The translations under genes were made by a program, and so were the position numbers. Shown here one piece after another: positions 4,935-48,586 of a stretch of 64,000 nucleotides of DNA. Below the pieces are notes generated by a model. That model was not told the origin of the DNA. It saw nothing but the letters and a program-made list of their open reading frames with translations, and made no database searches. Numbering within the stretch: position 1 is the first letter of the stretch; every line of letters begins with the position of its first letter. This stretch comes from Roseibacillus persicicus. GTDB lineage: Bacteria; Verrucomicrobiota; Verrucomicrobiia; Verrucomicrobiales; Akkermansiaceae. The stretch covers positions 186,001 through 250,000 of the forward strand of contig NZ_BMXI01000004.1 of assembly GCF_014651675.1 (NCBI RefSeq), written 5' to 3'.

Positions 4935-5837
4935 TCAAGAAAACAGAATCCCGGCCACGAACTCTCTCACCGCACGGGGTGGTTCGGGTTCTTTGCGGGT
5001 GAGGACGGCGAGCTTACGGGTGGGTGACCCTCCCACGTCGAGCCTTTGGAGTTTGGAGGAACGTCGGAAAGCGGAGAGCGCGCGACGTGGGACAAAGGCG
5101 ACTCCCATGCCGAGTTCGACCAGCTGCACCATCACATCGAAGCTGTCGAGTTCCATCGCCGGAGAGACCTCGACTCCTTTTGTTAGAAACCAGTTTTGCA
5201 GCACAAGCCGACTGGTCGACTGCGCAGGCGGAAGGAGCCAGCGCTGTTTGACGCTCCAAGTTCGCAGCGAGGGTTTACGCCTCAGATTCGCATTCGACTC
5301 CTGGAGTGAAATCAGAACGAACTCATCCTCAAACTGATGACTCACCTCCAGGTCCTGCGGGATCTGGGGCGGCAGCGGCACGATACCGACATCCAGCTTC
5401 GCCGATAGCACCCCACCAATCACCGCTTTGCCACGGGGATGGGAGAGTTCGATGCGGGTTTGCTCCTCGGTCTTGTTCGAATGAAAGAGTCCAGGCAAGT
5501 GAGCGAGAGAAAGACTGCGCGACACCCCCACCCGGATGACCGGAAGTTCGCCGAAACAGTCTTCGCGAACTTTTCGCAAAGCCCCTTCCAGGATGTGGGG
5601 CATGGCTTCAGTTTCTCTCAAGAGAATTTGACCGGCAGCGGTGAGAACCAGGCTGCGGGTCGTTCGGTCGAAAACGGTAAAGCCCAGTCTAGCTTCGGCT
5701 TCTTGAATGCGACGACTCAGGGCACTCTGCGAGCCCCCGGTTTGCCGAGCAGCGCTGGTAATCGACCCCGCGTCAGCCACCCTCCGCAGCAACTCTAACA
5801 GCTCCAGATCGATGCGCGGCAGACTTTCGTTATTCAT
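4935..5837 (-). CDS. LysR-family transcriptional regulator
   Basis: 300 residues with the standard LysR layout. A winged helix-turn-helix occupies residues 8-67 (LELLELLRRVADAGSITSAA, SQSALSRRIQEAEARLG, LFDRTTR-like segment FDRTTRSLVLTAAG). A periplasmic-binding-protein-like effector domain runs from about residue 97 (PVIRVGVSRSLSLAHLPGL) to the end, including the typical LVELGMGVAFVPRRAL near 245-260. The length is normal for the family. It is divergent from a 4Fe-4S ferredoxin gene whose start lies 69 bases away, and a T-N11-A palindrome sits across its own start codon. Autoregulation and control of the ferredoxin are therefore likely but inferred. The effector is unknown. Confidence 0.93.
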   Translation of the reverse strand: MNNESLPRIDLELLELLRRVADAGSITSAARQTGGSQSALSRRIQEAEARLGFTVFDRTTRSLVLTAAGQILLRETEAMPHILEGALRKVREDCFGELPVIRVGVSRSLSLAHLPGLFHSNKTEEQTRIELSHPRGKAVIGGVLSAKLDVGIVPLPPQIPQDLEVSHQFEDEFVLISLQESNANLRRKPSLRTWSVKQRWLLPPAQSTSRLVLQNWFLTKGVEVSPAMELDSFDVMVQLVELGMGVAFVPRRALSAFRRSSKLQRLDVGGSPTRKLAVLTRKEPEPPRAVREFVAGILFS

Positions 5838-5906: not shown

Positions 5907-6152
5907 ATGGCAGACGAAACCGACAAAAATCCGCGCAATGCCCCCGGGTCATTCTTCAACGATCTTAGCTGCATCGACTGCGGGCTTTGCCCGGAACTCG
6001 CACCCAACGTCTTCAAGCGTGATGACGAAGAGGGCCTGAGCTACGTGTGGCGCCAGCCCGAATCGGCAGACGAGATTCGCGCCGCCCACGAAGCCATCGA
6101 AGCGTGCCCGACCGAGTCGATTGGGCACTCTGTCCAGTTGGCGGGAAAGTGA
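5907..6152 (+). CDS. Single-cluster 4Fe-4S ferredoxin
   Basis: 81 residues. C22-I-D-C25-G-L-C28 together with C67-P form the four ligands of one 4Fe-4S cluster (CxxCxxC...CP), as in small ferredoxins of the Fer4_13/Fer4_15 type. It has no second cluster motif, signal peptide or membrane segment, so it should be a cytoplasmic one-electron carrier. The central part is acidic (KRDDEEGLSYVW). It sits alone between the divergent LysR gene and a 229-base gap, so its redox partner cannot be read from context. The start is the only ATG that keeps the whole cluster motif. Confidence 0.88.
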   Translation: MADETDKNPRNAPGSFFNDLSCIDCGLCPELAPNVFKRDDEEGLSYVWRQPESADEIRAAHEAIEACPTESIGHSVQLAGK

Positions 6153-6381: not shown

Positions 6382-8091
6382 TTGAAGACAATCGTTCATC
6401 ATCTCGCATTCACCTGCTGTCTCCTGCTGCAAGCTTGGGGGCAGTCGGTGCAATGCGATTTGGTGTTCGAGCTCAATTGGCGGGGCGAGCGCTACCAAGT
6501 GGGCACTGAGCGCGAAGGGCGTCGAGTCAGTCGCTGTGACTATCTCCTCTCGCAGTTCGCTCTGCAAAAAGAAGATGGCTCCTGGATGGAAGCGGACTCC
6601 TCCTTGATCGCCTTCATTTCTCATGGCGAGGCTCGCACTCGTTTTTCCTTGGGGACCATTCCGGAAGGCCGCTTTCAAGCTCTCCGTTTTGTCGTTGGTC
6701 TCGATGAGAACACCAATGCCTCCGACCCGAACCGCTATCCACCCGAGCACCCCCTCAACCCCCAGCTCAACAACCTCCATTGGACTTGGCAGAGCGGATA
6801 CATCTTTTGCGCGCTGGAGGGTCACAGCGAGCAGGACCTCGGCTTCCTCTATCATCTGGGCAATGACTCCAACGCCACCGAAATCGTTTTGCCTCTGGAG
6901 CTGGATCTCGAGGGTGCCCAAACGCTCTCCCTAAGTCTGGATTTGGCAAAAATTCTGGCGAGTCCACGGCTCGATATCAGAGAGACCACCTCCACCCACT
7001 CCCGCCCCGGTGACCCTGTCGCCACCACCTTTTCCCAGCTTCTCGGTCAAGCCTTCACCGTCGACGCCATCACTCCGGGCATCTATCATTACCCCCAGGC
7101 GAACAACCCACTTCACCCGAATCAACAACCCACTGCGGAACCGGCGATCCAACGTCACTTCCCTCAACCCGATTTCCCTGCCGACAATCCCCTTACCTAT
7201 GAAGGAGTGGCCTTGGGCAAGGCGCTCTTCTTCGACCCCATTCTATCCAAAGAGCGCAACATCTCCTGTGCCAGTTGTCACCAACCCGAGGCCGCCTTCA
7301 GCGACGCGGGCTTGGCCTTTTCCGAAGGTCATCTCGGAGGAAAGAGCACCCGCAATTCCATGCCGCTCTTTAATCTCGTCTGGCATCGAGAGATGTTTTG
7401 GGACGGACGGGTCCAAACTCTCCGGGAGCAAGTTCTTCATCCCATTGAGCATCCCGACGAATTGGCCCTGCCTCTCACGGAGGCCCTGCAGCGGCTCAAT
7501 GCCAACCCCGAATACCCCACCACTTTTGCCAAGGTCTTTGGAAAATCCGAAATCGATGGCGACCTCTTGGCGAAAGCCTTGGAGCAATACTTGCTGTCCC
7601 TGATCTCTCAGGAATCGCGTTTTGACCAAGCGATGCGCGGGGAGGTCGAGCTGACCGCTGAGGAGAAACGGGGCTTCGAACTCTTCATCACCGAGCATGA
7701 CCCTGACAACGGCTTGCGGGGCGCCGACTGTTTTCACTGTCACGGGGGCGCGCTCTTTAGCAATCACACCTTCGCCAACAATGGCTTGGACCGCACGTTC
7801 TCAGACCTGGGCCGGGCGGCCGCAACTGGGCTGGAAAGCGACCGGGGCAAGTTCAAGGTACCCAGCTTGCGCAATCTCACCCTCACTGCGCCCTACATGC
7901 ACGACGGACGCTTCGCGACCCTGGAAGAGGTGGTGGAGCACTACAACTCCGGGGTTCAACGTTCTCCCACTCTAGACCCGAATCTGGCCAAACATCCCGA
8001 GACCGGACTCGACCTCACCGAAGCGGACAAGGCGGCTCTCGTCGCCTTCCTCACCACTCTCACCGACCACCAATTCCCAAACCAGCCATGA
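6382..8091 (+). CDS. MbnP domain fused to MauG/MbnH-type di-haem cytochrome c peroxidase
   Basis: 569 residues, probably secreted: MKTIVHHLAFTCCLLLQAWG is a signal peptide. Residues 22-225 match the MbnP copper-binding family in layout (DLVFELNWRGERY, then LRFVVGLDE, NP and the hallmark LHWTWQSGYIF at 132-142). Residues 230-565 are a di-haem peroxidase of the MauG/CcpA family: haem 1 C296-A-S-C299-H300, haem 2 C450-F-H-C453-H454, and APYMHDGR (503-510) near the second haem. In known MbnP/MbnH pairs the two are separate proteins, and the di-haem enzyme oxidises an MbnP tryptophan to kynurenine, creating the copper site. Here both are one chain. W134 and W136 are the candidate substrate residues. 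The start is TTG; an in-frame stop lies 36 bases upstream and no ATG or GTG precedes the signal peptide. The last four bases (ATGA) overlap the next gene, so the two are translationally coupled. Confidence 0.85.
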   Translation: MKTIVHHLAFTCCLLLQAWGQSVQCDLVFELNWRGERYQVGTEREGRRVSRCDYLLSQFALQKEDGSWMEADSSLIAFISHGEARTRFSLGTIPEGRFQALRFVVGLDENTNASDPNRYPPEHPLNPQLNNLHWTWQSGYIFCALEGHSEQDLGFLYHLGNDSNATEIVLPLELDLEGAQTLSLSLDLAKILASPRLDIRETTSTHSRPGDPVATTFSQLLGQAFTVDAITPGIYHYPQANNPLHPNQQPTAEPAIQRHFPQPDFPADNPLTYEGVALGKALFFDPILSKERNISCASCHQPEAAFSDAGLAFSEGHLGGKSTRNSMPLFNLVWHREMFWDGRVQTLREQVLHPIEHPDELALPLTEALQRLNANPEYPTTFAKVFGKSEIDGDLLAKALEQYLLSLISQESRFDQAMRGEVELTAEEKRGFELFITEHDPDNGLRGADCFHCHGGALFSNHTFANNGLDRTFSDLGRAAATGLESDRGKFKVPSLRNLTLTAPYMHDGRFATLEEVVEHYNSGVQRSPTLDPNLAKHPETGLDLTEADKAALVAFLTTLTDHQFPNQP

Positions 8092-11000
8092 AACGTTCCA
8101 CCCTTTTCGTTCTTCCTCTTGTTTGGCTTTCCCTTCTGACCAAGGTTTCGGCGGACGCCAACATTCATGCCGAAGACGATCTTTTCTGGCAACAAGCCGC
8201 ATCGCTTCTTCCAAACTACACCGCGCCCCCAAGTGCGCCCGCCGTCTCGACCCGCGCTGGAAAATGGGGTCCCGTAATCGACTGGCCGCACACCCCCGTG
8301 ACCATCGCGGTTCTCCCCAACGGCAAGCTCCTCACCTACGCGGGGCAAGAGCCCATGACCTGGCCGGGCACCGCACACCAGACCAACTGGGCCCTCTGGA
8401 ATCCCGACAACTGGCAATTCGCCAGCGACCTCTATCAAGGCCACGAAATGTTCTGTGCGCATCCCGTGATGCGGACGGACGGCATCCTGCAGACAATGGG
8501 AGGACGCTTCACCATCGAGCACTCATCAACCTACGACTGGCGCTCGAACTCCTGGAACAAGGTCCCCGATATGAACGGGAAGCGCTGGTATACCACCGCG
8601 GTGGCGCTCTCCGATGGTGATGTGGTGACCTTTGGCGGCCAAGGCAGCCCCAACACCGTCGAGCGCTTTGACCATAACAACCAGCAATGGAATCTGCTCA
8701 GCGGCATCAACTGGCAGCCGATCTCCGGCGCCTCGGGATTCGAGAGCAACGGCTGGCCCTTCCTGATGGTGGCTCCCGATGGCCGCCTCTTCCACTTTGG
8801 CCCCACCGACACCATGCATTGGGTCGACGCCAGTGGAAACGGTTCGCGCACCTCGGCCGGGGTCACAGTGCCAGGAAATCACTACCCTCACGATGGCGGC
8901 ATTGTGATGTATGGCTCGGGCAAATACCTCATCGTGGGAGGAGCCGCCAACCCCAACTCCTCCACCGCGAGCAAGCTTTGCTACACCGTCGATCTCAACA
9001 CCACACCTCCCACCGTTCAGACCACCGGCTCGATGGCCTTTGCCCGCAGTCTTCACAATATCGTCTCGTTGCCATCCGGAGAAGTGGTCGCCATTGGGGG
9101 AAATACCACTGGCCTTCGTTTCTCCGATGGAGGCTCCATCTTGCCGGCCGAGGTCTGGAACCCGGCCACCGGCACCTGGCGCACGCTGTCCAGCATGGCC
9201 ATTCCCCGCAACTACCACTCCACCGCCGCGCTGCTCCCCGACGGACGGGTCTATTCCGGAGGAGGCGGCTACCTCTCTAACAATGCGACGAGTTCGGCCA
9301 ACCATCCTGACGCGCAAATCTTCACTCCTCCCGCCCTGCTCGACGCCAGCAACAATCCCATTGCCCGCCCTACCATCAAGGAGGCTCCCGAAGCGGTGGC
9401 GCTGGGTTCGGTCTTCGAGGTTTCGGCTAGTGCTGGTCTCAATCGCTTTTCCATGACCCGCATGATCGCCATCACCCACGGCGTCACCTCGGACCAACGC
9501 TTTCTCGATATTCCTTTCACCGAGACCTCGCCCGGAACCTATCAGCTCATCTCCCACCCTAACAAAGACGTCATGGTTCCCGGCTACTGGATGCTCTTTG
9601 CCACCCAAGCCAATGGAGCTTACTCCGAAGCGAAAATCATTCACGTCAAAGAGACTTCGGATTCCGACACCAGCGGTCTCATGGCCCAATACTTCGACGG
9701 CACCAACTTCCAAACCCTCAAGGAGACCCGCACCGATGCCCTCATTGATTTCACTTCCACCTCGAACTCGCCCCTTCCCGACTTGGTGGGCAATGGCACC
9801 TACTCCGTTCGTTGGACGGGTTGGATCATTCCCGATTATTCCGAAGACTACACCTTCTACACCCAGTCAGATGACGGGGTCCGGTTGTGGGTCGACAACC
9901 AGCAAATCATCAATAACTGGAATAGTCACTCCTCCACCGAAGACTCCGCCACCATCGCCCTGCAGGGCGGGGTTCCGGTGCCCATCCGCCTCGATTACTA
10001 CCAGAATATAAATGACTCCACCATCCAGCTGAAGTGGTCCAGCCCCCGCACCAGCAAAGCCATCGTTCCTTCGGGGGCCTTGCGCTCGGTCGAACCTCGC
10101 AACGAGGCGACCATCGCCTCCCAGAACCGACACGAGCTCTACATCGATGGTCAGCTGACCCAGTTGGGCCTGAACTCCAGCAGCGCGACCACCACTTCCT
10201 TCTCCGACGAGACGCACCGGACGATTGCCATTCATGTCACCGACGTCATTGGCTCCACCGGCTTGCTTGGGCACTTGCGAGTCAATGGTGAGATTCTCAC
10301 CACCTCCTCGGATTGGAAAGTCTCCCACACCGCCCCCTCCGACTGGGAGCAGCCTGAATTCGATGACTCGGCCTGGGCCTTTGCCACCGAGCACGGGGAC
10401 CTCGCCAGTGCGCCTTGGGCCCCGGTTTCCGGCTTTCCCAAAAGCTCATCGGCGAAATGGATTTGGTCCTCCGACCTCAATAATCGCAACGGACTCTATC
10501 TGCGCATCAAGGTGGGAGAGCTCTCCCTCGCACACCAGCCACCTGCCAACGCCTTTCTCAATACCACCCTCAATCACTCGGTCTCCGCGAGCGGTGGCGT
10601 CCCCCCTTATACTTTTTCGGTAGAAAACCTTCCCCAAGGTCTCACTCTCAACCCGAGTTCCGGCCTCATCACCGGTCAACCCACCCTGACGGGCACCGGC
10701 ACCGTGATTATCACCGTCACCGATAGCGAAGGTCAGCAGGTGGCGAGCACCCAGCCTTGGACCATCCACGGCAGTTTGCTTTTTGAAGAAGACTTTGAAA
10801 GTGACGACGGTGGCTTCAGCTATCGCGATGACGCCTTTCGATCGACGAACAATCCCGCCTACGCAAAAGGTTCCAACTCCATTCAAAGCCGGGTGGGTGG
10901 CGACTCCTTGCAAGCGCTCTACACCTTCGAACAAGGGTCTGTAGCCAATACGGTCTATGATCTTTCCGGAAACGGCACCCCTCTCAATCTGACCATTGCC

Positions 11001-14000
11001 AATCCCTCCCTGACAAGTTGGAACGCTGATGGCAGCCTGTCAGTCACAGGAAACACCCTCATCCAAAGCACCACCGCCGCGAGCAAACTGCACCAAGCCA
11101 TCACCGGCAGCAATGCGATGACCCTCGAAGCCTGGGTTCGCCCACAAAACCTCACTCAAGCCGGTCCCGCCCGCATCGCCACGCTATCGAGCACGACCAG
11201 CTTGCGCAACTTCACCGTGGGGCAAGAGGGACGCAACTATCACGGCCGTCTGCGCACCCCACAGACTTCGACGAACGGACTCCCCGGGGTGGAAACCACC
11301 TCCAACCCCGCCGCGCTCGCCTATCAGCACGTGGTCTACACCCTTTCCAACGGTGTTGGCCGTCTCTACGTCGATGGTGACCTCGTGCAGACTGCCAGTG
11401 TGCCTGGTGCGCTTTCCAACTGGGACTCCTCCTATCGCTTTGCCCTCGCCAACGAACTCACTCTCAACCGTCCCTGGTTGGGCGACTACGACTTGCTCGC
11501 GGTCTACAGCAAGGGCCTGACTGCGGCGGAGATTGCCACTAATTATCAGGCCGGACGCGCGGGTTCACCCCTCCGCGATGGTCGGCTCCATGTCGAACTC
11601 GGTGGCGTCGACACCACTACCCGCTCGGGGATGTCGGGAGCATGGGAGCGCACAATCCAATTGCCCCAACCGGGAACTGTTGTCATTTCTCCCCAATGGA
11701 GGCTCGATGCCAGCACTACGCTGGATAGCGATGAAAGCAGCGAGGTCCTCGTTTCCCTGAATGGTCAGCTTCTGGGATTGAATGGGAACGACTATCTCAT
11801 TCAAAACACCGGCGGCGGTGACTCCGGCTATCAAACCTCCACTGTTTCCTCAGCCATCGTGCCTGCGGGAAACCACACCCTGCGTCTGGGGGCCTATCTT
11901 TCCAAAAAGAACGACCCAAGCGAGACCGCTCACTTCGAGCTCGAGTCGCTTCTCGTCACATTCATTCCCGACGAAAACGAAGCTCCTACCCTGAGCGAGG
12001 TTCCGGATCTCACCCACACCGAAGGGACCTCCATTAGCTATCTGGTCAGTGGTGCGGACGCGGACAATGACCCGCTCACCTACCGCGCAACGGGTCTTCC
12101 GGCGGGACTCGCCATCGATCCCAACAGCGGACGAATCACGGGGCGGCCTACTTCGCCGCAAAGCTACACTCCCATCGTCACGGTCTCCGACCCCGATGGA
12201 GAACAGGCCGCGCGCACCTTTAGCTGGACAATTCATCCCATCATCGACCTCCCAGAGACCTTGACCAGCCCCAGCCAGTCCGGCTCAGCCACGACCTTCA
12301 ACGTGGGTGCAACGGGTGGCACCAATGTCACCTATGCTTGGAACTTTGGAGACGGCACTCCAGAGGTCACCACCAGCGCTTCGTCCGCCAGCCACGTCTT
12401 CAGTCAACCGGGCCGTTACACGGTTTCCCTGACCGCCACTGATGCCAACGGCGATGCCGTGACCCGGCGTCTGACGCACCTGGTTCACCCCGCTCTGACC
12501 GCCAGCCGCCCCCGCAATACCCAACCTGTTATCACCGTGGTCAACGGCACGAGCGAACAGATCTGGAACGTCAATCCCGACCAAGATACCGTCAGCGTCT
12601 TCGACCTTCCTAGTCGCAGCAAGCTTGCGGAAATTCCCGTCGGGGACTTTCCCCGCACTCTCAGCCTCGCTCCCGACGGTCGGGTCTGGGTCTCTAACAA
12701 GACCTCGTCAACGCTCTCGGTCATCGACCCCAACGACTACAGCGTGGTCACTCGCGTTCTTCCCCGTGGTGCCATGCCTCACGGAATCGTGCACAGTCCC
12801 GACGGAGCCAGCGCTTGGATCGCGTTGGAAGCTCTGGGTGAAGTGGCGAAGCTGCATCCCACCACCGGCGCAATCCTGTCCCGCCATCCCGTGGGGGACT
12901 TTCCCCGCCACCTCGCCATCAACCACGATGGCAGCCGACTCTACCTGCCGCAGTTCATCTCTCCCCCTGCGCCGGGTGAGTCCACGGGAACCCCGGATCT
13001 GAGCACAGCGGGTGGGTATGTGACCGTCATGGAAACCGCCACCGCCAACATTCTGACCCGCACCCGCTTGCAAGCTTCCACCGAAAGCGATTTCGCGGGT
13101 GGCGGACGCGGCCTTCCCAACTATCTCGGATCACCCGCTCTCTCTCCCGCTAATGATTCGGCCTGGATTCCCTCCAAGCTCGACAACATCGAGCGGGGCG
13201 TGCTGCGCGACGGGCTTCAGCTGGACCACCAGAACTCGGTGCGCTCCATCTCCTCCCGTATCGACCTTTCGACTAACAACGAGGATTACCTAAGCAGAAT
13301 TGACCACGACAACTCGGGGCTCCCTTCCGCCGCAATCTATGGTCCCTACGGGCTTCATCTCTTTGTCGCCTTGGAAGGTTCGCGCGAAGTCGCGGTCGTC
13401 GATGTTTACGGCGGGCAGGAACTCTTCCGGCTGAATGTCGAGCTCGCCCCCCAGGGTCTCGCGCTTTCCCCCGACGGACATACTCTTTACGTCCACAACT
13501 TCATGAGCCGTTCCCTCACTTGCCATGATCTCTCCGCTCTCGTGGAGCATGGCACCGAGGCGGCGCCGACTCTGGCCACACTGGATGCCACCAGCACGGA
13601 AACTCTTCCCGCTCAGGTCCTGTTGGGAAAACAGTTCTTCTACGACTCCGAGGACGACCGACTCAGCATGGAAAACTACATGTCCTGTGCCTCCTGCCAC
13701 AATGAGGAAGGACACGATGGCCGGACCTGGGACTTCACCGGATTTGGCGAGGGACTACGCAACACCATCGACTTGCGCGGCCGGGGCGGAGAAGAACACG
13801 GCCCCTTGCACTGGAGTGCGAACTTCGACGAGTTTCAGGACTTCGAAGGACAGATCCGCAGCTTTGCCAAAGGAACTGGACTTCTTTCGACGGGAACTCC
13901 CCACCCAACCCTGGGCTCGCCGAACGGAGGTCGTAGTGAAGACCTTGATGCCTTGGCTGCCTATCTCTCCTCTCTCACCGAAGTTCCTCAATCCCCTCAT

Positions 14001-16277
14001 CGCTCCAACGGAGGCGAGCTGACTGCAGCTGCCCTCACGGGGAAAGACCTCTTCCTTTCCAAGGGCTGTGCCGATTGTCACAGTGGATCCGCCTTTACCG
14101 ATTCCGGCTCGGCCTTCCACGACATCGGCACCATCACCGCCGCCTCCGGGCAAAGGCTCAATGGTGCGCTGCCGGGATTCGACACTCCTTCTCTTTTAGC
14201 TTCATGGGCTGGTTCGCCCTATCTGCACGATGGCTCGGAAAACACTTTGGCCGGAGCCATCACTGCTCACGAAGGGGTCAGTGTGACGCCTGCGGAACTC
14301 GAGTCTCTTGTCGCCTACCTGAATCAGCTGGAAGAGAATCCAGATGAAATCCCCGCGCAGTCCCTCGCCCTCGGAGGCACTCCCGCCCCCGTTCCCGGCC
14401 GCATCGAGGCGGAGAACTACGACACCGGCGGTCCTGGAGTCTCATATAGCGATACCGACCCGGAAAACTTTGGAGCCAACTTTGGCGAAAACTTCCGTGC
14501 CGAAGGGGTGGACCTGGAAGCCTCCCTCGACACCGCCAACACCCCCGCCATCGGATGGATCGAAGATGGCGAGTGGACCAGCTACACCGTGGCCTTGACC
14601 CCCGGCACCTATGACTTGGCTGCCCGGGCTGCCAGCGAGCTGAACATTCCGGGCTCGATTCGAGTTCTGTTAGACGAGGCAGTGTTGGGCGAGATCGACA
14701 TCGACTCCACTGGTGGCTGGTATGCCTGGGAAGACTTTGTCCTGCCCAATCTTACGATTAGTGAAGGCGGAACGGCTGTGCTGCGACTGGAGTTTCAGGG
14801 AGCGTCCTTTAACCTAAACTGGATCGAATTCCGGGAACCCGGCAGTGGGGGTGGCCCCGGCGAAACCGAGGACGACCAGACTCCCTTCGGCGGCCCTGCG
14901 GCACTCATACCCGGACGGGTAGAGGCCGAAAACTTTGATGATGGCGGGCCCGGAGTGGCTTACCTCGACTCGGAGGAAGAGAACTTCGGGTTCACCTACA
15001 CCGACCTCAACTACCGTCCGGGTGGAGTCGATATCGAGGCTTCCTTTGACAGCCCGTCGACCCCTTCCGTCGGTTGGACCGATCCCGGGGAATGGATGGA
15101 ATACACCGTCGAAGTCACCCCGGGCACCTACGACCTCAAGGCCCGGGTTGCCAGTGGCTTCGCGCTTCCGGGTGGGCTTTCGGTCGAACTGAACGGTCGG
15201 GCGCTCGGCACCTTCGAGGTCACTGGCACCGGGGACTGGTATCAATGGGAAACCGTTACCATCCCCTCGGTCGAAATCGTCGAGACCGGTCTTCAAGTCC
15301 TGCGACTGAAGTTCACGGGACAAGCCGGATTCAATCTGAACTGGATCGAAATCGGCGAAGGAGCCGGCGAGCCCCCTGTTCCCGAAGGGCAAAATCCATT
15401 CGGAGGAACCGCCCACCTCATCCCCGGACGGGTGGAGGCGGAGAACTACGACTTGGGTGGACAGGGAGTAGCCTACTCCGATGCTGAAGAGGCAAACTTG
15501 GGCGGAGCCTACCGCACGGAGGGCGTCGACATCGATCCCTCGGGCGACACGGAAGGCGGCTATAGCGTGGGCTGGTTCGACGATGGCCAATGGATGGAAT
15601 ACACCGTGCAAGCCCCGACTGGAATCTATCAGCTGAACATGCGGGTCGCGAGTGCCGAGAGCGTGGTGGGTGATGTTCGCGTGACCCTCGATGGAGAAGA
15701 ACTCGGGATCATCGATGTGCAATCCACCGGCGGGTGGGCCAATTGGATCACCCTTTCCCTCCCCTCAATACCCATTGCCAGCGCTGGTCAAAAGGTGATC
15801 CGATTGGAGATGATTGGCGACGCGGTCAACCTCAACTGGTTCGAGTTGGTGCGCACCGATGCCTTGACCAATCTCAGCGCAATGTCCTTTCAACAGGTGG
15901 GGCTGGTCGTCGAGAGCAGTGTCGACAGCGACGGCGACAACAGCAGTAACCTTGCTGAGTTCGCGTTCGGCTCCCACTCGGGACAAGCGAACAGTCAACC
16001 GGTCATCCCAGTGACAGTCGATGAAGAGGGGCGCTGTTGCCAGACCGTCCCGGTAGCTGTAGGTGGAACCTTGGGGAGAAATACTTACACCGCAGCCGGA
16101 CTGGTCTACACCTTCCAAGGCTCCCGTGACTTGGCGAACTGGGACGAGCCGATTCACTTTGTCGACAATCCCAGCGGACTCCCGACTCCGCCCACTGGCT
16201 ACCACTATCTCACCTATCGCCTCGCCGACCACAGTCTCGAGAACGGCTACCTCCGCGTTCTGGTGGACGAGGAGTAG
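8088..16277 (+). CDS. Giant secreted copper-radical oxidase / di-haem peroxidase / CBM6 protein
   Basis: 2729 residues with signal peptide MKRSTLFVLPLVWLSLLTKV. Order: galactose/glyoxal oxidase-like Kelch domain and its DUF1929-type end (45-522); PA14 (530-668); Ig/He_PIG (815-893); LamG-like (940-1155); He_PIG (1297-1382); PKD (1390-1468, WNFGDG); YVTN-type beta-propeller (1475-1825); di-haem cytochrome c peroxidase (1830-2085); three CBM6-like modules (about 2093-2249, 2265-2422, 2436-2587); and a C-terminal domain with an Asp-rich VDSDGDNSSNLAEF. The copper-radical residues align with those of galactose oxidase: C123 (EMFCAH) and Y168 (RWYTTA) for the Tyr-Cys cofactor, Y376-H377 (RNYHST) and H464 (THGVTSDQR). 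The stacking Trp of galactose oxidase is not seen. The haems are C1867ASCH and C1994ADCH. It probably oxidises a carbohydrate or aldehyde outside the cell, making H2O2. The di-haem domain could use that peroxide (inference). It is coupled by ATGA to the MbnP-MauG gene. Confidence 0.88.
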   Translation: MKRSTLFVLPLVWLSLLTKVSADANIHAEDDLFWQQAASLLPNYTAPPSAPAVSTRAGKWGPVIDWPHTPVTIAVLPNGKLLTYAGQEPMTWPGTAHQTNWALWNPDNWQFASDLYQGHEMFCAHPVMRTDGILQTMGGRFTIEHSSTYDWRSNSWNKVPDMNGKRWYTTAVALSDGDVVTFGGQGSPNTVERFDHNNQQWNLLSGINWQPISGASGFESNGWPFLMVAPDGRLFHFGPTDTMHWVDASGNGSRTSAGVTVPGNHYPHDGGIVMYGSGKYLIVGGAANPNSSTASKLCYTVDLNTTPPTVQTTGSMAFARSLHNIVSLPSGEVVAIGGNTTGLRFSDGGSILPAEVWNPATGTWRTLSSMAIPRNYHSTAALLPDGRVYSGGGGYLSNNATSSANHPDAQIFTPPALLDASNNPIARPTIKEAPEAVALGSVFEVSASAGLNRFSMTRMIAITHGVTSDQRFLDIPFTETSPGTYQLISHPNKDVMVPGYWMLFATQANGAYSEAKIIHVKETSDSDTSGLMAQYFDGTNFQTLKETRTDALIDFTSTSNSPLPDLVGNGTYSVRWTGWIIPDYSEDYTFYTQSDDGVRLWVDNQQIINNWNSHSSTEDSATIALQGGVPVPIRLDYYQNINDSTIQLKWSSPRTSKAIVPSGALRSVEPRNEATIASQNRHELYIDGQLTQLGLNSSSATTTSFSDETHRTIAIHVTDVIGSTGLLGHLRVNGEILTTSSDWKVSHTAPSDWEQPEFDDSAWAFATEHGDLASAPWAPVSGFPKSSSAKWIWSSDLNNRNGLYLRIKVGELSLAHQPPANAFLNTTLNHSVSASGGVPPYTFSVENLPQGLTLNPSSGLITGQPTLTGTGTVIITVTDSEGQQVASTQPWTIHGSLLFEEDFESDDGGFSYRDDAFRSTNNPAYAKGSNSIQSRVGGDSLQALYTFEQGSVANTVYDLSGNGTPLNLTIANPSLTSWNADGSLSVTGNTLIQSTTAASKLHQAITGSNAMTLEAWVRPQNLTQAGPARIATLSSTTSLRNFTVGQEGRNYHGRLRTPQTSTNGLPGVETTSNPAALAYQHVVYTLSNGVGRLYVDGDLVQTASVPGALSNWDSSYRFALANELTLNRPWLGDYDLLAVYSKGLTAAEIATNYQAGRAGSPLRDGRLHVELGGVDTTTRSGMSGAWERTIQLPQPGTVVISPQWRLDASTTLDSDESSEVLVSLNGQLLGLNGNDYLIQNTGGGDSGYQTSTVSSAIVPAGNHTLRLGAYLSKKNDPSETAHFELESLLVTFIPDENEAPTLSEVPDLTHTEGTSISYLVSGADADNDPLTYRATGLPAGLAIDPNSGRITGRPTSPQSYTPIVTVSDPDGEQAARTFSWTIHPIIDLPETLTSPSQSGSATTFNVGATGGTNVTYAWNFGDGTPEVTTSASSASHVFSQPGRYTVSLTATDANGDAVTRRLTHLVHPALTASRPRNTQPVITVVNGTSEQIWNVNPDQDTVSVFDLPSRSKLAEIPVGDFPRTLSLAPDGRVWVSNKTSSTLSVIDPNDYSVVTRVLPRGAMPHGIVHSPDGASAWIALEALGEVAKLHPTTGAILSRHPVGDFPRHLAINHDGSRLYLPQFISPPAPGESTGTPDLSTAGGYVTVMETATANILTRTRLQASTESDFAGGGRGLPNYLGSPALSPANDSAWIPSKLDNIERGVLRDGLQLDHQNSVRSISSRIDLSTNNEDYLSRIDHDNSGLPSAAIYGPYGLHLFVALEGSREVAVVDVYGGQELFRLNVELAPQGLALSPDGHTLYVHNFMSRSLTCHDLSALVEHGTEAAPTLATLDATSTETLPAQVLLGKQFFYDSEDDRLSMENYMSCASCHNEEGHDGRTWDFTGFGEGLRNTIDLRGRGGEEHGPLHWSANFDEFQDFEGQIRSFAKGTGLLSTGTPHPTLGSPNGGRSEDLDALAAYLSSLTEVPQSPHRSNGGELTAAALTGKDLFLSKGCADCHSGSAFTDSGSAFHDIGTITAASGQRLNGALPGFDTPSLLASWAGSPYLHDGSENTLAGAITAHEGVSVTPAELESLVAYLNQLEENPDEIPAQSLALGGTPAPVPGRIEAENYDTGGPGVSYSDTDPENFGANFGENFRAEGVDLEASLDTANTPAIGWIEDGEWTSYTVALTPGTYDLAARAASELNIPGSIRVLLDEAVLGEIDIDSTGGWYAWEDFVLPNLTISEGGTAVLRLEFQGASFNLNWIEFREPGSGGGPGETEDDQTPFGGPAALIPGRVEAENFDDGGPGVAYLDSEEENFGFTYTDLNYRPGGVDIEASFDSPSTPSVGWTDPGEWMEYTVEVTPGTYDLKARVASGFALPGGLSVELNGRALGTFEVTGTGDWYQWETVTIPSVEIVETGLQVLRLKFTGQAGFNLNWIEIGEGAGEPPVPEGQNPFGGTAHLIPGRVEAENYDLGGQGVAYSDAEEANLGGAYRTEGVDIDPSGDTEGGYSVGWFDDGQWMEYTVQAPTGIYQLNMRVASAESVVGDVRVTLDGEELGIIDVQSTGGWANWITLSLPSIPIASAGQKVIRLEMIGDAVNLNWFELVRTDALTNLSAMSFQQVGLVVESSVDSDGDNSSNLAEFAFGSHSGQANSQPVIPVTVDEEGRCCQTVPVAVGGTLGRNTYTAAGLVYTFQGSRDLANWDEPIHFVDNPSGLPTPPTGYHYLTYRLADHSLENGYLRVLVDEE

Positions 16278-43165: not shown

Positions 43166-46100
43166 ATGAAACGCCTCACTCTCCTCTTCAGTCTCTTCGC
43201 AGCCGCCCTTAGCCACGGCGCGGTCAACGAGACCATCTCCACCGTCACCATCAACAGCGGCCCCTATGTGATAGCCTCCGACGCCAGTCGAGAAGGCTTG
43301 GACCGCGATAAAATCAGCGTACGAGTCGACTTCAGCTACGTGAGCAATTCAGGCGGAGTGGAGTCAACGGACTTTCGCATTGATCTTCAGGTTCGCGAAG
43401 CAGGCACCAATGCGCTGGTCAGCACCGATCAGGGAATCCCCTTCTCGGTCAACGCGGGAACGATTACCACCAACGATTTCCGCACCCGCACCATCACCCC
43501 GACCTCCACCCTCGTTCCTTGGAAAAACTACTACGTGCGGGTCGGACTCTTCGAACAAACCACGGGAAGCACCTACGTGCTGCAGGATAGCCTCGACACC
43601 ACAGCGCAACAATTTCTCCATTTCGAAAACACCGACAACTCCGACACCGAGGTGAATGTTCTGGGGGAAATCACCTCCATCGACTGGGACCGCCGCTGGG
43701 CTCTCCAAACCCATACCGATCCCGAGAAACAGAAGTTCAAGGCCACCGCGAACATCACTCTGCATCGCTACGATGACTATCTGGAGACAGTCCCTGACGA
43801 ACACCTCATTGGATGCAAAGTGACCTACGAGCTGCGGGAGGAAGGCTCTAACAACCTCATCGCGGTGGCGGACGACGACGCCAACTTTGGCCGCAATATG
43901 GACGAGTTTCACTACACCGGTTCGGTGCAGGAGCCCTACACCCGAGAGGTCATCAAGGAATTCACCTTCAAGCCCACGACCCAATTGGCCAGTCTCTCCT
44001 CGACCTACTATGTCCGCGTGAGCCTTTCGCACGAAGAGGTGGAGGACTCTTCTATTTACTTGGATGACCAACAGAATGTGAGCTCCTCATCGGAGATTTT
44101 GCATCATTTCAACGGCCAACTGGTGGGAGTCAATGATGGCAACAGTGTCAATCTGATCATGGACTCGCTGGACAATGCCGACGACCGGGTCAACGACCAG
44201 ATCATTGGCGGCAAACTCTTCTCCATCGTCACCAATCCTGCGGGAACCATCGAGGGCTATCCCAACTACACCTTTGCCGCCACGCGGGAATACTTTGTCC
44301 ACCTTTACGACGACGGGCATGCCGAGCTCGAGGACCTGTCCTTTCCCATCGACATTACCATCCCGCTGCAAGGCTTGATTGGGTCTGTCAATTTGATCCG
44401 CTTCACACGCTCGAATATGTATTTCGACGGCAATGGCGTGCATGCCGATATTTCCCTGATTCTGCCAGCCGGTCTCGGGGTCCACAATCAGAGCCCGGAA
44501 AACACCCAGCCCAAGGTCTACCAGTCCACCCTGGATGCCGGCACCCGGCTCATGACCACCACCTTGACTCCCACTGCGGCGAACATTCTCTTCGTCCATC
44601 CCTCGGGAGCCAAATATACTTTGGTAGAAGAGATCAAGCCCATCGCCATCACCTCGGCGTCCATCCTCTGGGATGTAGCCGAAGGGGCGATTCAACCCGG
44701 GGGCGCGATCACGGTGCAATACATCCGCGACCACGAGGAGCAAGTGCTGGCCAGTTCGCCCCTCCCCGCAGGCGACAAATTCTATCGCTCCAACGAAAAC
44801 TACTACAAGCATGTCACGGGGGTGACGGCTCAGCTTCCCACCCCGAAGATCGAGCCTTCCACGCTGGGCACGGCAGAGCTCAGCATCGAACTCGAAATCG
44901 AAGCGGGCGATTTTCACAGCCACTTCCCCTACGACGCCGAACTCTCTTGGGCCGACCCGAGCGTGCTCGCGATCGAAAATGATCTTCCGGTCCCCACTGA
45001 CAGCTCGCTAGACAACCCCGGGAACCTATCCGTCAGCTTTGCCCGTGATTGTGCGGATGCGGCGGCAATGGGCTGCGGGGCCATCGGTCTCGCTACCGCG
45101 AAAATCACTCCCACCGCCGACCTCGCCTTCACTCTGGATGGAGGTCTGTCCACGGGCGGAGACCTTGTTCAGCTTAGCTCGCGACGCGATGTGGTGATGG
45201 GCTACATTGATGCGCTCTCTTCTTCAACGGTCACCTATGCCCATGACAGCACCATCTTTGCCAACGGACGCTTCCTCATGGCAGGTCACTTCATCTCGGG
45301 AAAAGAACAAGGTCTGGACCTAAAGAACGGACCCGGCCGAATCCTCAGTTCCGGTTTCTCCGCAAATGACACGAGCGTTGATGAGCGCCCGGGGACGCCC
45401 GAGTATTTGGCGGGGCTTGCTGACTATCCTGGAATGAACTACCGCGTGGCAGACGAAGCCTCGGTAAGTGCAGTCAGCACCATCGGTGGCGTGACCACCC
45501 CCAGCTACACCCTTTCCAACCGGGCAAAATATTACACCCGATTGTCGGGGGTCAGCGGCATCCACGAACCCTCCGCAAATCCCTTCACCGGTCCGGTGCA
45601 AATCTATGGCTACGACTTTGACTTCACCGCCTTCGGTTTCTCTTTCCTATCCAGCGAAGTGCACGAGTCCATCACTGCGGGCAGCATGGACGTCCCCTAT
45701 CCCTCGGAGTTCACCTTAGCGTTCGATCCGCTTTACCTCAACTGCTTGGGAGCACTAACCACGGCAGAAATCGATGGCGGAACGCTGGAGGATGACCTCG
45801 ATTTCTGGCAAGCTCCCTTCGTCGCCAGCGCGGCCCAATTCGAGCCTCCCGCCGGGGGCGAGTGCGATCCCTCGGAGGCCTATCTCACCCTTGGAGTCAC
45901 CGCCTACGCCTCCAATTTCTCGACTGCCCTCGCTGGCAAGCTTGGCTTCAAGGCGGACGGCAATCTCACGACCCTGCAGGACTCCGACAACGGCACTGGT
46001 CCCGAGGGCGTGGACTCGCGGCTCAGCCTGACCAGCAACGCCTATATCGATGGCCCGGGTGATGAACGCTATCACTTCACCCCCATTGCCGACGCCTACT

Positions 46101-48586
46101 TTGACAACTTCTCACTCGCCGAGAACCAGAGCGCCGACGTCGGCCTTCTCAATCTCCACGGGCAACTGGATGTCTCCTTCTTTGAAAGCCCGATCGTGCA
46201 CGTGCAAACCGGCGCCAAGCCCGACAATACCACCGACCTCATCTACATGCTGGGCGGCTGGACCGAGGCTGGGATTCGTACCGAAGACAGCGCGGACTTT
46301 GACCCCAACAATCGGGGGAGGCCGGCTAGTGGAACTCTGGCGAACTATCGGAGCGCGACCTCGGCCGACCACCAGATCCATGCCGTGCACGACTGGCTCA
46401 ATGTCGTTGACTTCGACTACGCCCTGCAATGGTCCACCGCTTCCCGCTCTTTCAAATCCATTGCACCCAAAACGAACGACCTCATGGTGCTAACGACCGA
46501 GAATGAGCTCACCTATCTCTCGGCCGAAAATGCCGAACTCGATTTCGGAGCATCCCTTGATCTCGGCATTCCGGAAATCAATCTCTCCTCCCTCGCCATC
46601 AATGCAATCGACGAGTCTACCGGCGTATTGGAAGCCCTGACCCAAAGCCTCGCGCAAGAAGCCACCGATGTGCTGCTCGAGGGGCTGGATGCGGGTGAAA
46701 GCCTTCTCAATGACAGGCTGGACGAACTCTTCGACGAGCTCTTCGAGTCGGCCATTGATCCCGTAATTGAAGATTTCTACCACGTCCTCGCTGCCGCCAA
46801 TGGTGACCCTGTGGCGATGCAGAACGCGATCGACACCTTCACCAATACCAACGGACCCGGCACTCTCTATTATGCCTTGAGAAACCTCACAGGATCCCCC
46901 GGAGACTCGGGGTCTTTGGCCGACTCGGTAGACCATTCCTTGGCCCAGGTGCAAGCGGCGATTCGGGCGGTGATTGGACAGGTCCAGTTCGATAACAGCT
47001 CGGAAGTCATTCTCGGGAACCCCACCCTAACCGTGCCGGAGGACACGGTGATTGCGGCCGGAAGCACCGCAGTGGAAGGACTCTTTGCCCGCACCGATGC
47101 CGACGGAAACGGAACGCCCGATGAGCTGGGTTATGAGATCGCAAAGGTTCTCGTTATTGCCCTGTTGGAAGAACTCGCGCCCGAGATAGCGGACAACCTT
47201 TCCGCCGTTCTCAATGCCGCTGCCGGAGCCCTGCTGGCGGAAGTCGAAGACGAGCTGATCTCGGCTCTGGAGGAAGTCGCTCCCTCCATCGAGGCGGTCA
47301 AGGAGACCTTGATGGAGATTCACAACACGATTGGGGATATTCGGGAAGAGCTCACTCTCTTCGAGGCGTTGGAAGACGCCTTTGCTGCCAGTAGCGCGGA
47401 AATCTTCATTCTCTTAGACAGCGTGGAATCAGTTGCAGAGGAGTTTATCGAAACTGTGGACCTCACCGAATACACCGAGGAAGAGGTGAAGGAACTTCTT
47501 CACATTGCCCTGCGTGACCAGTTCGACGGTTCTGCTCTCATTGGCGAGGTTCGCGTCATTTTGGCCTCCTATTTGTATGACCTCAATGCCTCCCTCAACG
47601 AGGGCATTTCTTCCGGCTTTGCCCAGCTCAATCGAATGCTTACCGAGTTGGTCGAAGATGTGATGCCAGTTGATTCCGGCCTCCAGAACCTTCTCGACGA
47701 TTTGGCAAGTGTGGGTACCGCAGGCAAGATCGACGGGTATGCGCACATCAACGGAGATGCCTTGCGCACCCTGCGGCTGGATGCGGAGATCGAGCTTCAG
47801 CTCCCCGACGAATTCAACATCGCCGGCTACTTCGAAATCAATCAACTCGACTCGCTCGGAAGCGATGTCTGCAGCTATGAAAGTGATGGAGAATATGCTG
47901 CCGAGGTCAAGATGGGGGCCGTCGACATTCCCGCCCGCTTCCTGGGAGGCGAACCCCGCTTCGACATCGAAGGCAAATTCACTTTCGACACGGGCAGCGG
48001 TTTTTCACTCCGCGGAATGGGGGGCTCCTTTGAAATGACGGGAGGGAGCTTGGAATTTGAAGCGATGGAGGTCACCTCTTTGGGTGCAGCGGCTATGTTC
48101 GGCATCGACGAGAACTACATGGCGGCGAAAGTGGGACTGGAATTCGATTCCTATCAGCTGGCGGGCGGCGTGTTTTTCGGCCGCACCTGTAGTTTAGAAC
48201 CTCTCCGATTGGTCGACCCCGATGTGGAAAACGTGCTCGGCGATCCCCCCTTCACCGGAATCTATGCCTATGGCGAGGCGCAGATTCCCATCGTGAGTGT
48301 GGGTTGCCTCTTTAGCCTGAGCGCCAAGGCTGGCGTGGGCGTGTTCGTTTTTGCCGAAGGGCCGACAGTGGGCGGCAAGATGCTTGTGGGAGCATCAGGG
48401 CGCGCTCTTTGTGCCGTAGAAGTGGGAGGCGAACTGACGCTCATTGGAGCGAAGGTTGGCAATGACTTCAACTTCTCGGGCAAGGGGCGCGTGTTCGGCA
48501 AAGTGGGCGTCTGCCCGCTCTGCACCGAATTCAACAAGTCCGTGACCCTGACCTACAAGAACGACAAGTGGGACTACGATTACTAA
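43166..48586 (+). CDS. Giant secreted protein of unknown function (1806 aa)
   Basis: Signal peptide MKRLTLLFSLFAAALSHG. Residues 20-1120 are beta-rich, with the Thr/Ser/Asp composition of extracellular proteins. They include immunoglobulin-like opening repeats (RVDFSYVSNSGGVESTDFR, YYVRVGLFEQTTGST, YYVRVSLSHEEVEDSS) and many acidic loops. About 1125-1510 switches to long amphipathic helices (LLEGLDAGESLLNDRLDELF, EEVAPSIEAVKETLMEIH), probably coiled coil. The last 300 residues are beta-structured and glycine-rich (GMGGSFEMTGGSLEFEAM), with cysteines near the end (KVGVCPLCTEF). No catalytic motif or membrane anchor is recognised. The gene is divergent from the ClpX-like gene and monocistronic. 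Roles as surface, matrix or adhesion protein are guesses. Confidence 0.8.
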   Translation: MKRLTLLFSLFAAALSHGAVNETISTVTINSGPYVIASDASREGLDRDKISVRVDFSYVSNSGGVESTDFRIDLQVREAGTNALVSTDQGIPFSVNAGTITTNDFRTRTITPTSTLVPWKNYYVRVGLFEQTTGSTYVLQDSLDTTAQQFLHFENTDNSDTEVNVLGEITSIDWDRRWALQTHTDPEKQKFKATANITLHRYDDYLETVPDEHLIGCKVTYELREEGSNNLIAVADDDANFGRNMDEFHYTGSVQEPYTREVIKEFTFKPTTQLASLSSTYYVRVSLSHEEVEDSSIYLDDQQNVSSSSEILHHFNGQLVGVNDGNSVNLIMDSLDNADDRVNDQIIGGKLFSIVTNPAGTIEGYPNYTFAATREYFVHLYDDGHAELEDLSFPIDITIPLQGLIGSVNLIRFTRSNMYFDGNGVHADISLILPAGLGVHNQSPENTQPKVYQSTLDAGTRLMTTTLTPTAANILFVHPSGAKYTLVEEIKPIAITSASILWDVAEGAIQPGGAITVQYIRDHEEQVLASSPLPAGDKFYRSNENYYKHVTGVTAQLPTPKIEPSTLGTAELSIELEIEAGDFHSHFPYDAELSWADPSVLAIENDLPVPTDSSLDNPGNLSVSFARDCADAAAMGCGAIGLATAKITPTADLAFTLDGGLSTGGDLVQLSSRRDVVMGYIDALSSSTVTYAHDSTIFANGRFLMAGHFISGKEQGLDLKNGPGRILSSGFSANDTSVDERPGTPEYLAGLADYPGMNYRVADEASVSAVSTIGGVTTPSYTLSNRAKYYTRLSGVSGIHEPSANPFTGPVQIYGYDFDFTAFGFSFLSSEVHESITAGSMDVPYPSEFTLAFDPLYLNCLGALTTAEIDGGTLEDDLDFWQAPFVASAAQFEPPAGGECDPSEAYLTLGVTAYASNFSTALAGKLGFKADGNLTTLQDSDNGTGPEGVDSRLSLTSNAYIDGPGDERYHFTPIADAYFDNFSLAENQSADVGLLNLHGQLDVSFFESPIVHVQTGAKPDNTTDLIYMLGGWTEAGIRTEDSADFDPNNRGRPASGTLANYRSATSADHQIHAVHDWLNVVDFDYALQWSTASRSFKSIAPKTNDLMVLTTENELTYLSAENAELDFGASLDLGIPEINLSSLAINAIDESTGVLEALTQSLAQEATDVLLEGLDAGESLLNDRLDELFDELFESAIDPVIEDFYHVLAAANGDPVAMQNAIDTFTNTNGPGTLYYALRNLTGSPGDSGSLADSVDHSLAQVQAAIRAVIGQVQFDNSSEVILGNPTLTVPEDTVIAAGSTAVEGLFARTDADGNGTPDELGYEIAKVLVIALLEELAPEIADNLSAVLNAAAGALLAEVEDELISALEEVAPSIEAVKETLMEIHNTIGDIREELTLFEALEDAFAASSAEIFILLDSVESVAEEFIETVDLTEYTEEEVKELLHIALRDQFDGSALIGEVRVILASYLYDLNASLNEGISSGFAQLNRMLTELVEDVMPVDSGLQNLLDDLASVGTAGKIDGYAHINGDALRTLRLDAEIELQLPDEFNIAGYFEINQLDSLGSDVCSYESDGEYAAEVKMGAVDIPARFLGGEPRFDIEGKFTFDTGSGFSLRGMGGSFEMTGGSLEFEAMEVTSLGAAAMFGIDENYMAAKVGLEFDSYQLAGGVFFGRTCSLEPLRLVDPDVENVLGDPPFTGIYAYGEAQIPIVSVGCLFSLSAKAGVGVFVFAEGPTVGGKMLVGASGRALCAVEVGGELTLIGAKVGNDFNFSGKGRVFGKVGVCPLCTEFNKSVTLTYKNDKWDYDY

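Follow-up and report, generated by a model that had tools for sequence, protein, structure and literature searches.

In the 64,000-nucleotide stretch of the Roseibacillus persicicus genome that we analysed (the window), a gene for an MbnP domain fused to a MauG/MbnH-like di-haem domain immediately precedes a gene for a multidomain protein with a copper oxidase domain, and the question this arrangement raises is what the first protein might do for the second. The initial annotation had described an MbnP-MauG gene coupled by an ATGA overlap to the gene for a 2729-residue protein, and this description agrees with the open reading frames: the fusion gene (6382..8091, + strand) begins with TTG and encodes 569 residues, the megaprotein gene (8088..16277, + strand) encodes 2729 residues, both products have a signal-peptide-like N-terminus, and the four bases at 8088..8091 (+), as read in the sequence, hold the stop codon of the one and the start codon of the other. 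Upstream of the pair is a gene for a LysR-type regulator (4935-5837, - strand), a candidate regulator, and between this gene and the pair we noted by eye a small ferredoxin-like reading (~5908 to 6152). Elsewhere in the window, an open reading frame of 1806 residues (43166-48586) had no NCBIfam match at E≤1, and its best Pfam match (E-value 0.016) fell short of the cut-off.

Within the fusion, residues 26-204 (6457..6993, +) matched the MbnP family PF20243 (E-value 8.6e-31) and residues 274-562 (7201..8067, +) matched PF03150 CCP_MauG (E-value 6.7e-53), as a di-haem MauG/MbnH-like domain. The best match of an AlphaFold model of the whole fusion (mean pLDDT 87.7) among the PDB chains compared was 6e1c (Z 35.0), and that of residues 21-236 was the MbnP structure 7l6g (Z 18.4), so that both halves, as modelled, match the solved folds of MbnH and MbnP. 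Since a profile of the MbnP half matched PDB sequences weakly, with 7l6g as the sole match (E-value 0.14), the likeness of this half rests on the fold match. Of the residues compared in 42 aligned fusions, W134 of the WxW motif, H158, H206 and D211 in the MbnP half were invariant in 42/42 and W136 of the same motif in 41/42; in the MauG half the two CxxCH motifs (296-300 and 450-454), W340, Q350, E360 and Y521 were likewise invariant in 42/42. By alignment, Y521 occupies the position of the Met of bCCP, corresponding to the MbnH/MauG-type Tyr on the six-coordinate haem, and the fusion has the MbnH/MauG hallmarks of two CxxCH motifs, an inter-haem Trp, a pocket Gln/Glu and a Tyr in place of Met. 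Copper binding by MbnP depends on kynurenine. The MbnP four-Cys motif was not found, as the cysteines in the MbnP part of the window's fusion are not conserved across the 42 fusions, and the fusion scored below the equivalog cut-off of TIGR04052 (MbnP; 39.8 vs 140 bits) and below the cut-offs of TIGR04039 (MbnH; 228.3 vs 362.85 bits) and TIGR03791 (184.5 vs 443.85 bits). Tyr-His haem ligation is given as a feature of MauG and BthA in PMC6405878.

The megaprotein opens with an AA5-type copper radical oxidase domain (residues 1-521; 8088..9650, +), with matches to Kelch and GO-like_E_set, followed by Pfam matches to PA14 (9672..10070, +), Laminin_G_3 (11076..11537, +) and He_PIG and PKD (11985..12458, +), a YVTN/YncE-type propeller, weak matches to CCP_MauG and Cytochrom_C, and three CBM6/CBM35-type carbohydrate-binding stretches (14385..15887, +; borders approximate). 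The closest PDB sequences to the oxidase domain were the galactose oxidases 9g8h and 9g43 (E-value 1.7e-81), and C123, Y168, Y376, H377 and H464 align with the copper-radical residues of galactose oxidase. The complete copper-radical active site previously read in this protein was borne out, as none of these five residues varies in any assessable copy among 61 (C123 in 58/58 and Y168 in 59/59, leaving out copies cut by contig ends, and Y376, H377 and H464 in 61/61 each). The column that presumably holds the stacking Trp of galactose oxidase (W290) had Gly in 12/12 oxidase sequences; the stacking residue varies within AA5, and therefore Gly at this column does not exclude membership.

The propeller (12483..13592, +) had as its best fold match hydrazine synthase beta (5c2v_B, Z 36.3), with the archaeal S-layer YVTN propeller 1l0q next (Z 34.5) and generic propellers also above 30. 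It is followed by a second, hydrazine-synthase-gamma-like di-haem domain (13593..14387, +) with CxxCH motifs at 13686-13700 and 14067-14081 and a conserved Trp (Trp445 in fragment numbering); the fold model of this domain was poor (pLDDT about 25-55). Searches of PDB sequences matched 5c2v_B and 5c2v_C (E-value 4.5e-10 for hydrazine synthase gamma), and the propeller and di-haem regions matched the NCBIfam hydrazine synthase beta-gamma model NF052342 (E-value 4.4e-23, 81.3 bits vs a cut-off of 1250). The two regions resemble a fused hydrazine synthase beta-gamma, as in non-anammox homologues in which a seven-bladed propeller is likewise followed by a MauG-like di-haem domain; according to PMC12758564, such distant fused homologues occur in many bacteria and carry Trp at the gamma-His144 position, as the megaprotein appears to do, the position here being placed by inference. 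We do not classify the unit as hydrazine synthase proper, as its score lies below the equivalog cut-off and gamma-His144 was not found, and, unlike hydrazine synthase beta-gamma, it sits after an AA5 oxidase domain. The initial annotation had called the region a second di-haem peroxidase domain; the di-haem part of this stands, but 'peroxidase' is not established, because the CCP_MauG match is weak (E-value 1.4e-8 over only 44 residues), the likeness to hydrazine synthase gamma is closer, and the position of the MauG Tyr and the bCCP Met is taken by a His (14268-14270), as in all 11 readable sequences.

To which part of the megaprotein is the fusion linked? An oxidase domain was found in 8 of the 387 genomes of a phylum sample, seven of which pass PF09118, and all seven of these genes, the window's included, lie downstream of a fusion and contain the propeller-di-haem unit. 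The eighth (G287) is a divergent, contig-cut fragment (32 percent) with no fusion within 4.7 kb upstream. The propeller-di-haem unit occurred at 21 places in 15/387 genomes; besides the window, six of these had both oxidase domain and fusion and 14 had neither, with no MbnP match at any of the 14 (8.5-13.5 kb fetched). Judged from these sequences, the presence of the fusion follows that of the copper-oxidase domain rather than that of the propeller-di-haem domain (7/8 vs 0/14 phylum genes), and with 14/14 oxidase-less loci devoid of an MbnP match we rejected partnership with the propeller-di-haem part as the main link. A Pfam scan of three propeller-di-haem proteins found no oxidase family in two N-terminally different examples. 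The propeller-di-haem proteins without an oxidase domain (L122-L135) have, in the three scanned, an N-terminal region without a family before Big_5/PKD. When genome contigs were scanned with the fusion, 581 loci were confirmed. Of the best 80, 79 came from Verrucomicrobiota or a bacterium without assignment and the other from Sphaerotilus; within these 80 the oxidase was the next gene in 13, and in one more (L003) it lay ~2.3 kb downstream. Recurrence across genomes rules out that the pair is a product of chance or an artefact.

A denser sample of 386 genomes of the order had PF09118 in 49 genomes at 60 places, which with one genome of the phylum sample (G338) gave 61 oxidase places in 50 genomes, 58 of them assessable as three are cut by contig ends. 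A fusion was found upstream of the oxidase in 35 of the 58 (window included): in 33 it is intact and the neighbouring gene, with gaps of -4 to about 400 nt, in one it is cut at a contig edge (L185) and in one it is about 2.3 kb away (L212). Since the in-frame ATGA overlap recurs in 24 of the 35 adjacent pairs, again counting the window, we consider the coupling to be more than chance. The other 23 assessable copies have no adjoining fusion, which rules out that the two are always next door. Twenty of the 23 belong to two clades of one genus (g9): in one the oxidase adjoins a topoisomerase IV A gene homologue (12 copies by BLAST, one checked by Pfam) and in the other an isocitrate/isopropylmalate dehydrogenase gene (four grouped, one checked). 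The remaining three are L172 and L184 (both in genome G454) and L168 (in G425). Two loci from genomes with a non-adjacent oxidase (L005 and L006) have flanking gene families in common with L007, a locus that does carry the megaprotein gene.

At least one adjacent pair was present in 36 of the 50 oxidase genomes (G414 by way of L233), and two genomes were not assessable. That relatives with the megaprotein might routinely lack the fusion gene, which would have counted against a partnership, was thus seen in part: adjacency is lost in 23/58 copies, yet of the 12 genomes with only non-adjacent assessable copies, 10 have a fusion elsewhere. In total a fusion (E≤1e-60) was found somewhere in 48/50 oxidase genomes, 18 or more of the 48 being from one genus. 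Neither G425 nor G472, both with an oxidase domain, had a fusion at this threshold; G425, a one-contig genome, also lacked the propeller-di-haem unit, and its oxidase (L168) is a stand-alone, divergent AA5-type protein of about 538 aa. The pairing is therefore conserved among related genomes, though not universal (adjacent in 7/8 phylum oxidase genes and 35/58 assessable copies). Across the order as a whole, with at most three candidates scored per genome, a fusion was present in 163 of 376 genomes, 46 of them oxidase genomes and 117 not, so that it is far commoner than the oxidase. As the sampled genomes are species representatives that are related to one another, these counts are not independent events.

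Quick trees showed how the linkage is distributed. In a tree of 111 fusions, one set of 45 (SH-aLRT 85) held 33 of the 35 oxidase-adjacent fusions and 10 of the 11 unlinked fusions from oxidase genomes, with only L003 and L040 otherwise; the window and Haloferula fusions fell outside it, on long branches at an unresolved fork. The adjacent label required 10 changes on this tree (shuffled mean 30.0, 0/500 as low) and adjacent and unlinked labels together four, and on the oxidase tree the non-adjacent label required five (shuffled mean 18.8). From the few changes in both trees, loss of linkage was rare and took place largely in a single genus, which retained the fusion.

Fusions without an oxidase neighbour often had another one. 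An HMM that we built from seven YHYH domains, with six loci confirmed by Pfam PF14240, matched 38 of 67 fusion loci without an adjacent oxidase and 0/13 with one (within the best 80 of 581), 0/60 loci of the order-level oxidase sample, and six of eight fusion loci from genomes without an oxidase (the eight chosen for high fusion score). The window genome itself has a second fusion (G000:C5:48644-50218, locus L086) that adjoins a YHYH-domain gene, and also a gene matching HEAT and, weakly, cupredoxin. Sulfatase domains were seen fused to or near YHYH proteins beside the fusion at two loci (L028, 6638-9910; L029, 11740-13173). No title on the protein domain was found among the literature matches listed for YHYH. 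These neighbours of oxidase-free fusions imply that the fusion serves something broader than the oxidase. One can conceive of fusions as a general extracellular copper-loading device with swappable clients, the AA5 oxidase on one branch and YHYH proteins on others, an idea we hold to be doubtful as it stands; if it were true, the YHYH proteins would be copper proteins that have not been described as such, and the 'metallo-mystery pair' would act as a metallochaperone based on kynurenine, not as an accessory to methanobactin.

With regard to the gene pair itself, its recurrence suggests that the fusion supplies or matures copper for the giant oxidase, and a partner of this kind is the simplest account of three observations: the genes are coupled, the fusion goes with the oxidase domain, and the residues of its MbnP and MauG halves are conserved. 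Our preferred reading, to which we assign a probability of roughly 0.45, is that a self-modifying, secreted copper-binding fusion loads or matures the AA5 oxidase, and that the H2O2 from the oxidase feeds the di-haem half. Both proteins would be made from one transcript. The di-haem half would use peroxide to oxidise the conserved Trp of WxW in the MbnP half in cis, turning it into a residue that binds copper (probably kynurenine); once loaded, the secreted fusion would pass copper to the AA5 domain and so mature it. The mature oxidase, likely extracellular and held on glycan by its CBM/PA14 modules, would then act on an alcohol or aldehyde to give H2O2, which might be used by the fusion's di-haem half and perhaps by the megaprotein's own di-haem domain. 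Several results weigh against this reading: the 23/58 oxidase copies with no adjoining fusion, the two oxidase genomes with none at E≤1e-60, the divergent G287 fragment, the many fusions in genomes that lack the oxidase, the TIGR04052 and TIGR04039 scores below cut-off, the unconserved Cys of the MbnP half, and the place of the window and Haloferula fusions outside the main oxidase-linked set. As there is one SCO1-SenC gene elsewhere in the window genome, another copper chaperone may serve the oxidase; and as added copper alone restores GlxA maturation in Streptomyces (PMC4736821), a dedicated chaperone may matter only under copper scarcity.

The invariant MauG-type residues would also fit a redox partner, whose di-haem half either takes one electron from the oxidase to give the active Cu(II)-tyrosyl-radical form or removes its H2O2, with the MbnP half docking or tuning. 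Precedents are found in two papers, in which a tandem haem peroxidase activates fungal copper radical oxidases (PMC9770985) and DtpA consumes the H2O2 of GlxA (PMC4736821). We nevertheless think this role unlikely, since it leaves unexplained both why the fusion retains a whole MbnP half, its WxW and His unvaried, and why many oxidase-free fusions lie beside YHYH proteins, and the Tyr ligand goes, in MauG, with protein modification and not with efficient peroxidase turnover (PMC6405878). The same MauG-type residues could be taken to mean that the oxidase owes its Tyr-Cys cross-link directly to the MauG half, much as TTQ in methylamine dehydrogenase is made by MauG, and a maturation role has been proposed for mauG beside mtoX (PMC5739008). 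This we consider highly improbable: in galactose oxidase and GlxA the cross-link is set off by copper incorporation, with no MauG involved (PMC4736821), and in the MbnP half there is already a substrate in cis.

That the fusion is widespread without the oxidase, and that 23/58 oxidase copies are unlinked to it, would be expected if the two genes share only their regulation, by copper or a common substrate, and the fusion is a general copper-homeostasis protein with no action on the oxidase. Tight translational coupling, however, is kept between relatives about 50 percent identical, it is the oxidase domain, rather than the other parts of the megaprotein, that the fusion is associated with, and the 48/50 co-occurrence also weighs against shared regulation, though with its 18 or more genomes from one genus; we judge mere co-regulation to be quite unlikely.

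The copper-supply or maturation partnership offered by the initial annotation thus has partial support from comparison, through the tie to the oxidase domain and the 48/50 co-occurrence. The annotation did not know the idea as described, and in this it did not hold up, since sets of chaperone, haem peroxidase or MauG, and copper oxidase are known from PMC4736821 and PMC5739008. In Streptomyces, GlxA depends for its maturation on Sco, a copper chaperone, and DtpA, a haem peroxidase (PMC4736821), so that the GlxA-Sco-ECuC-DtpA system likewise joins an AA5-type copper radical oxidase with a copper-binding protein and a haem peroxidase. The helpers there are separate proteins, Sco having a thioredoxin fold and DtpA being a DyP peroxidase, whereas here a single MbnP-MauG chain holds both the copper-binding and the di-haem part, and the oxidase is built into a 2729-residue protein that has a di-haem unit of its own. 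In the operons of methanethiol oxidase, mtoX adjoins SCO1/senC and mauG, the two being fused together in some genomes (PMC5739008), which again places a copper enzyme beside a copper chaperone and MauG, but the enzyme is of the SBP56 type, SCO1 stands instead of MbnP and a TTQ cofactor is proposed. The fungal tandem of peroxidase and alcohol oxidase (Perox-AlcOx) likewise pairs genes for a haem peroxidase and a copper radical oxidase, though with a class II peroxidase, head-to-head genes and no copper-binding domain. Because the GlxA/Sco/DtpA, mtoX/SCO1/mauG and fungal peroxidase-activated oxidase sets are published, the logic of the pair is already known. The MbnP/MbnH pair (TIGR04052/TIGR04039), known from methanobactin operons among others, MopE/SACCP and CorA/CorB share with the fusion the two folds (6e1c and 7l6g), WxW and the Tyr-type di-haem site; by comparison with the MbnP/MbnH pair, the two parts are fused here, score below the cut-offs, and have AA5 oxidase or YHYH neighbours, not methanobactin genes. 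In the titles and abstract openings that our literature search covered incompletely, we found no description of this pair for Verrucomicrobia copper radical/galactose oxidase or for MbnP/MbnH fusions.

In the megaprotein, an oxidase expected to make H2O2 would share one chain with a propeller/di-haem unit resembling hydrazine synthase and with modules that bind glycans. For the family, the pairing bears on the role of MbnP/MbnH outside methanobactin operons, where coupling to a well-understood copper enzyme provides a direct handle on the chaperone idea, and it marks out YHYH proteins as possible copper proteins. If our preferred reading is true, copper loading by the MbnP-MauG fusion would be a second solution, besides Sco and a DyP peroxidase, for maturing bacterial copper radical oxidases.
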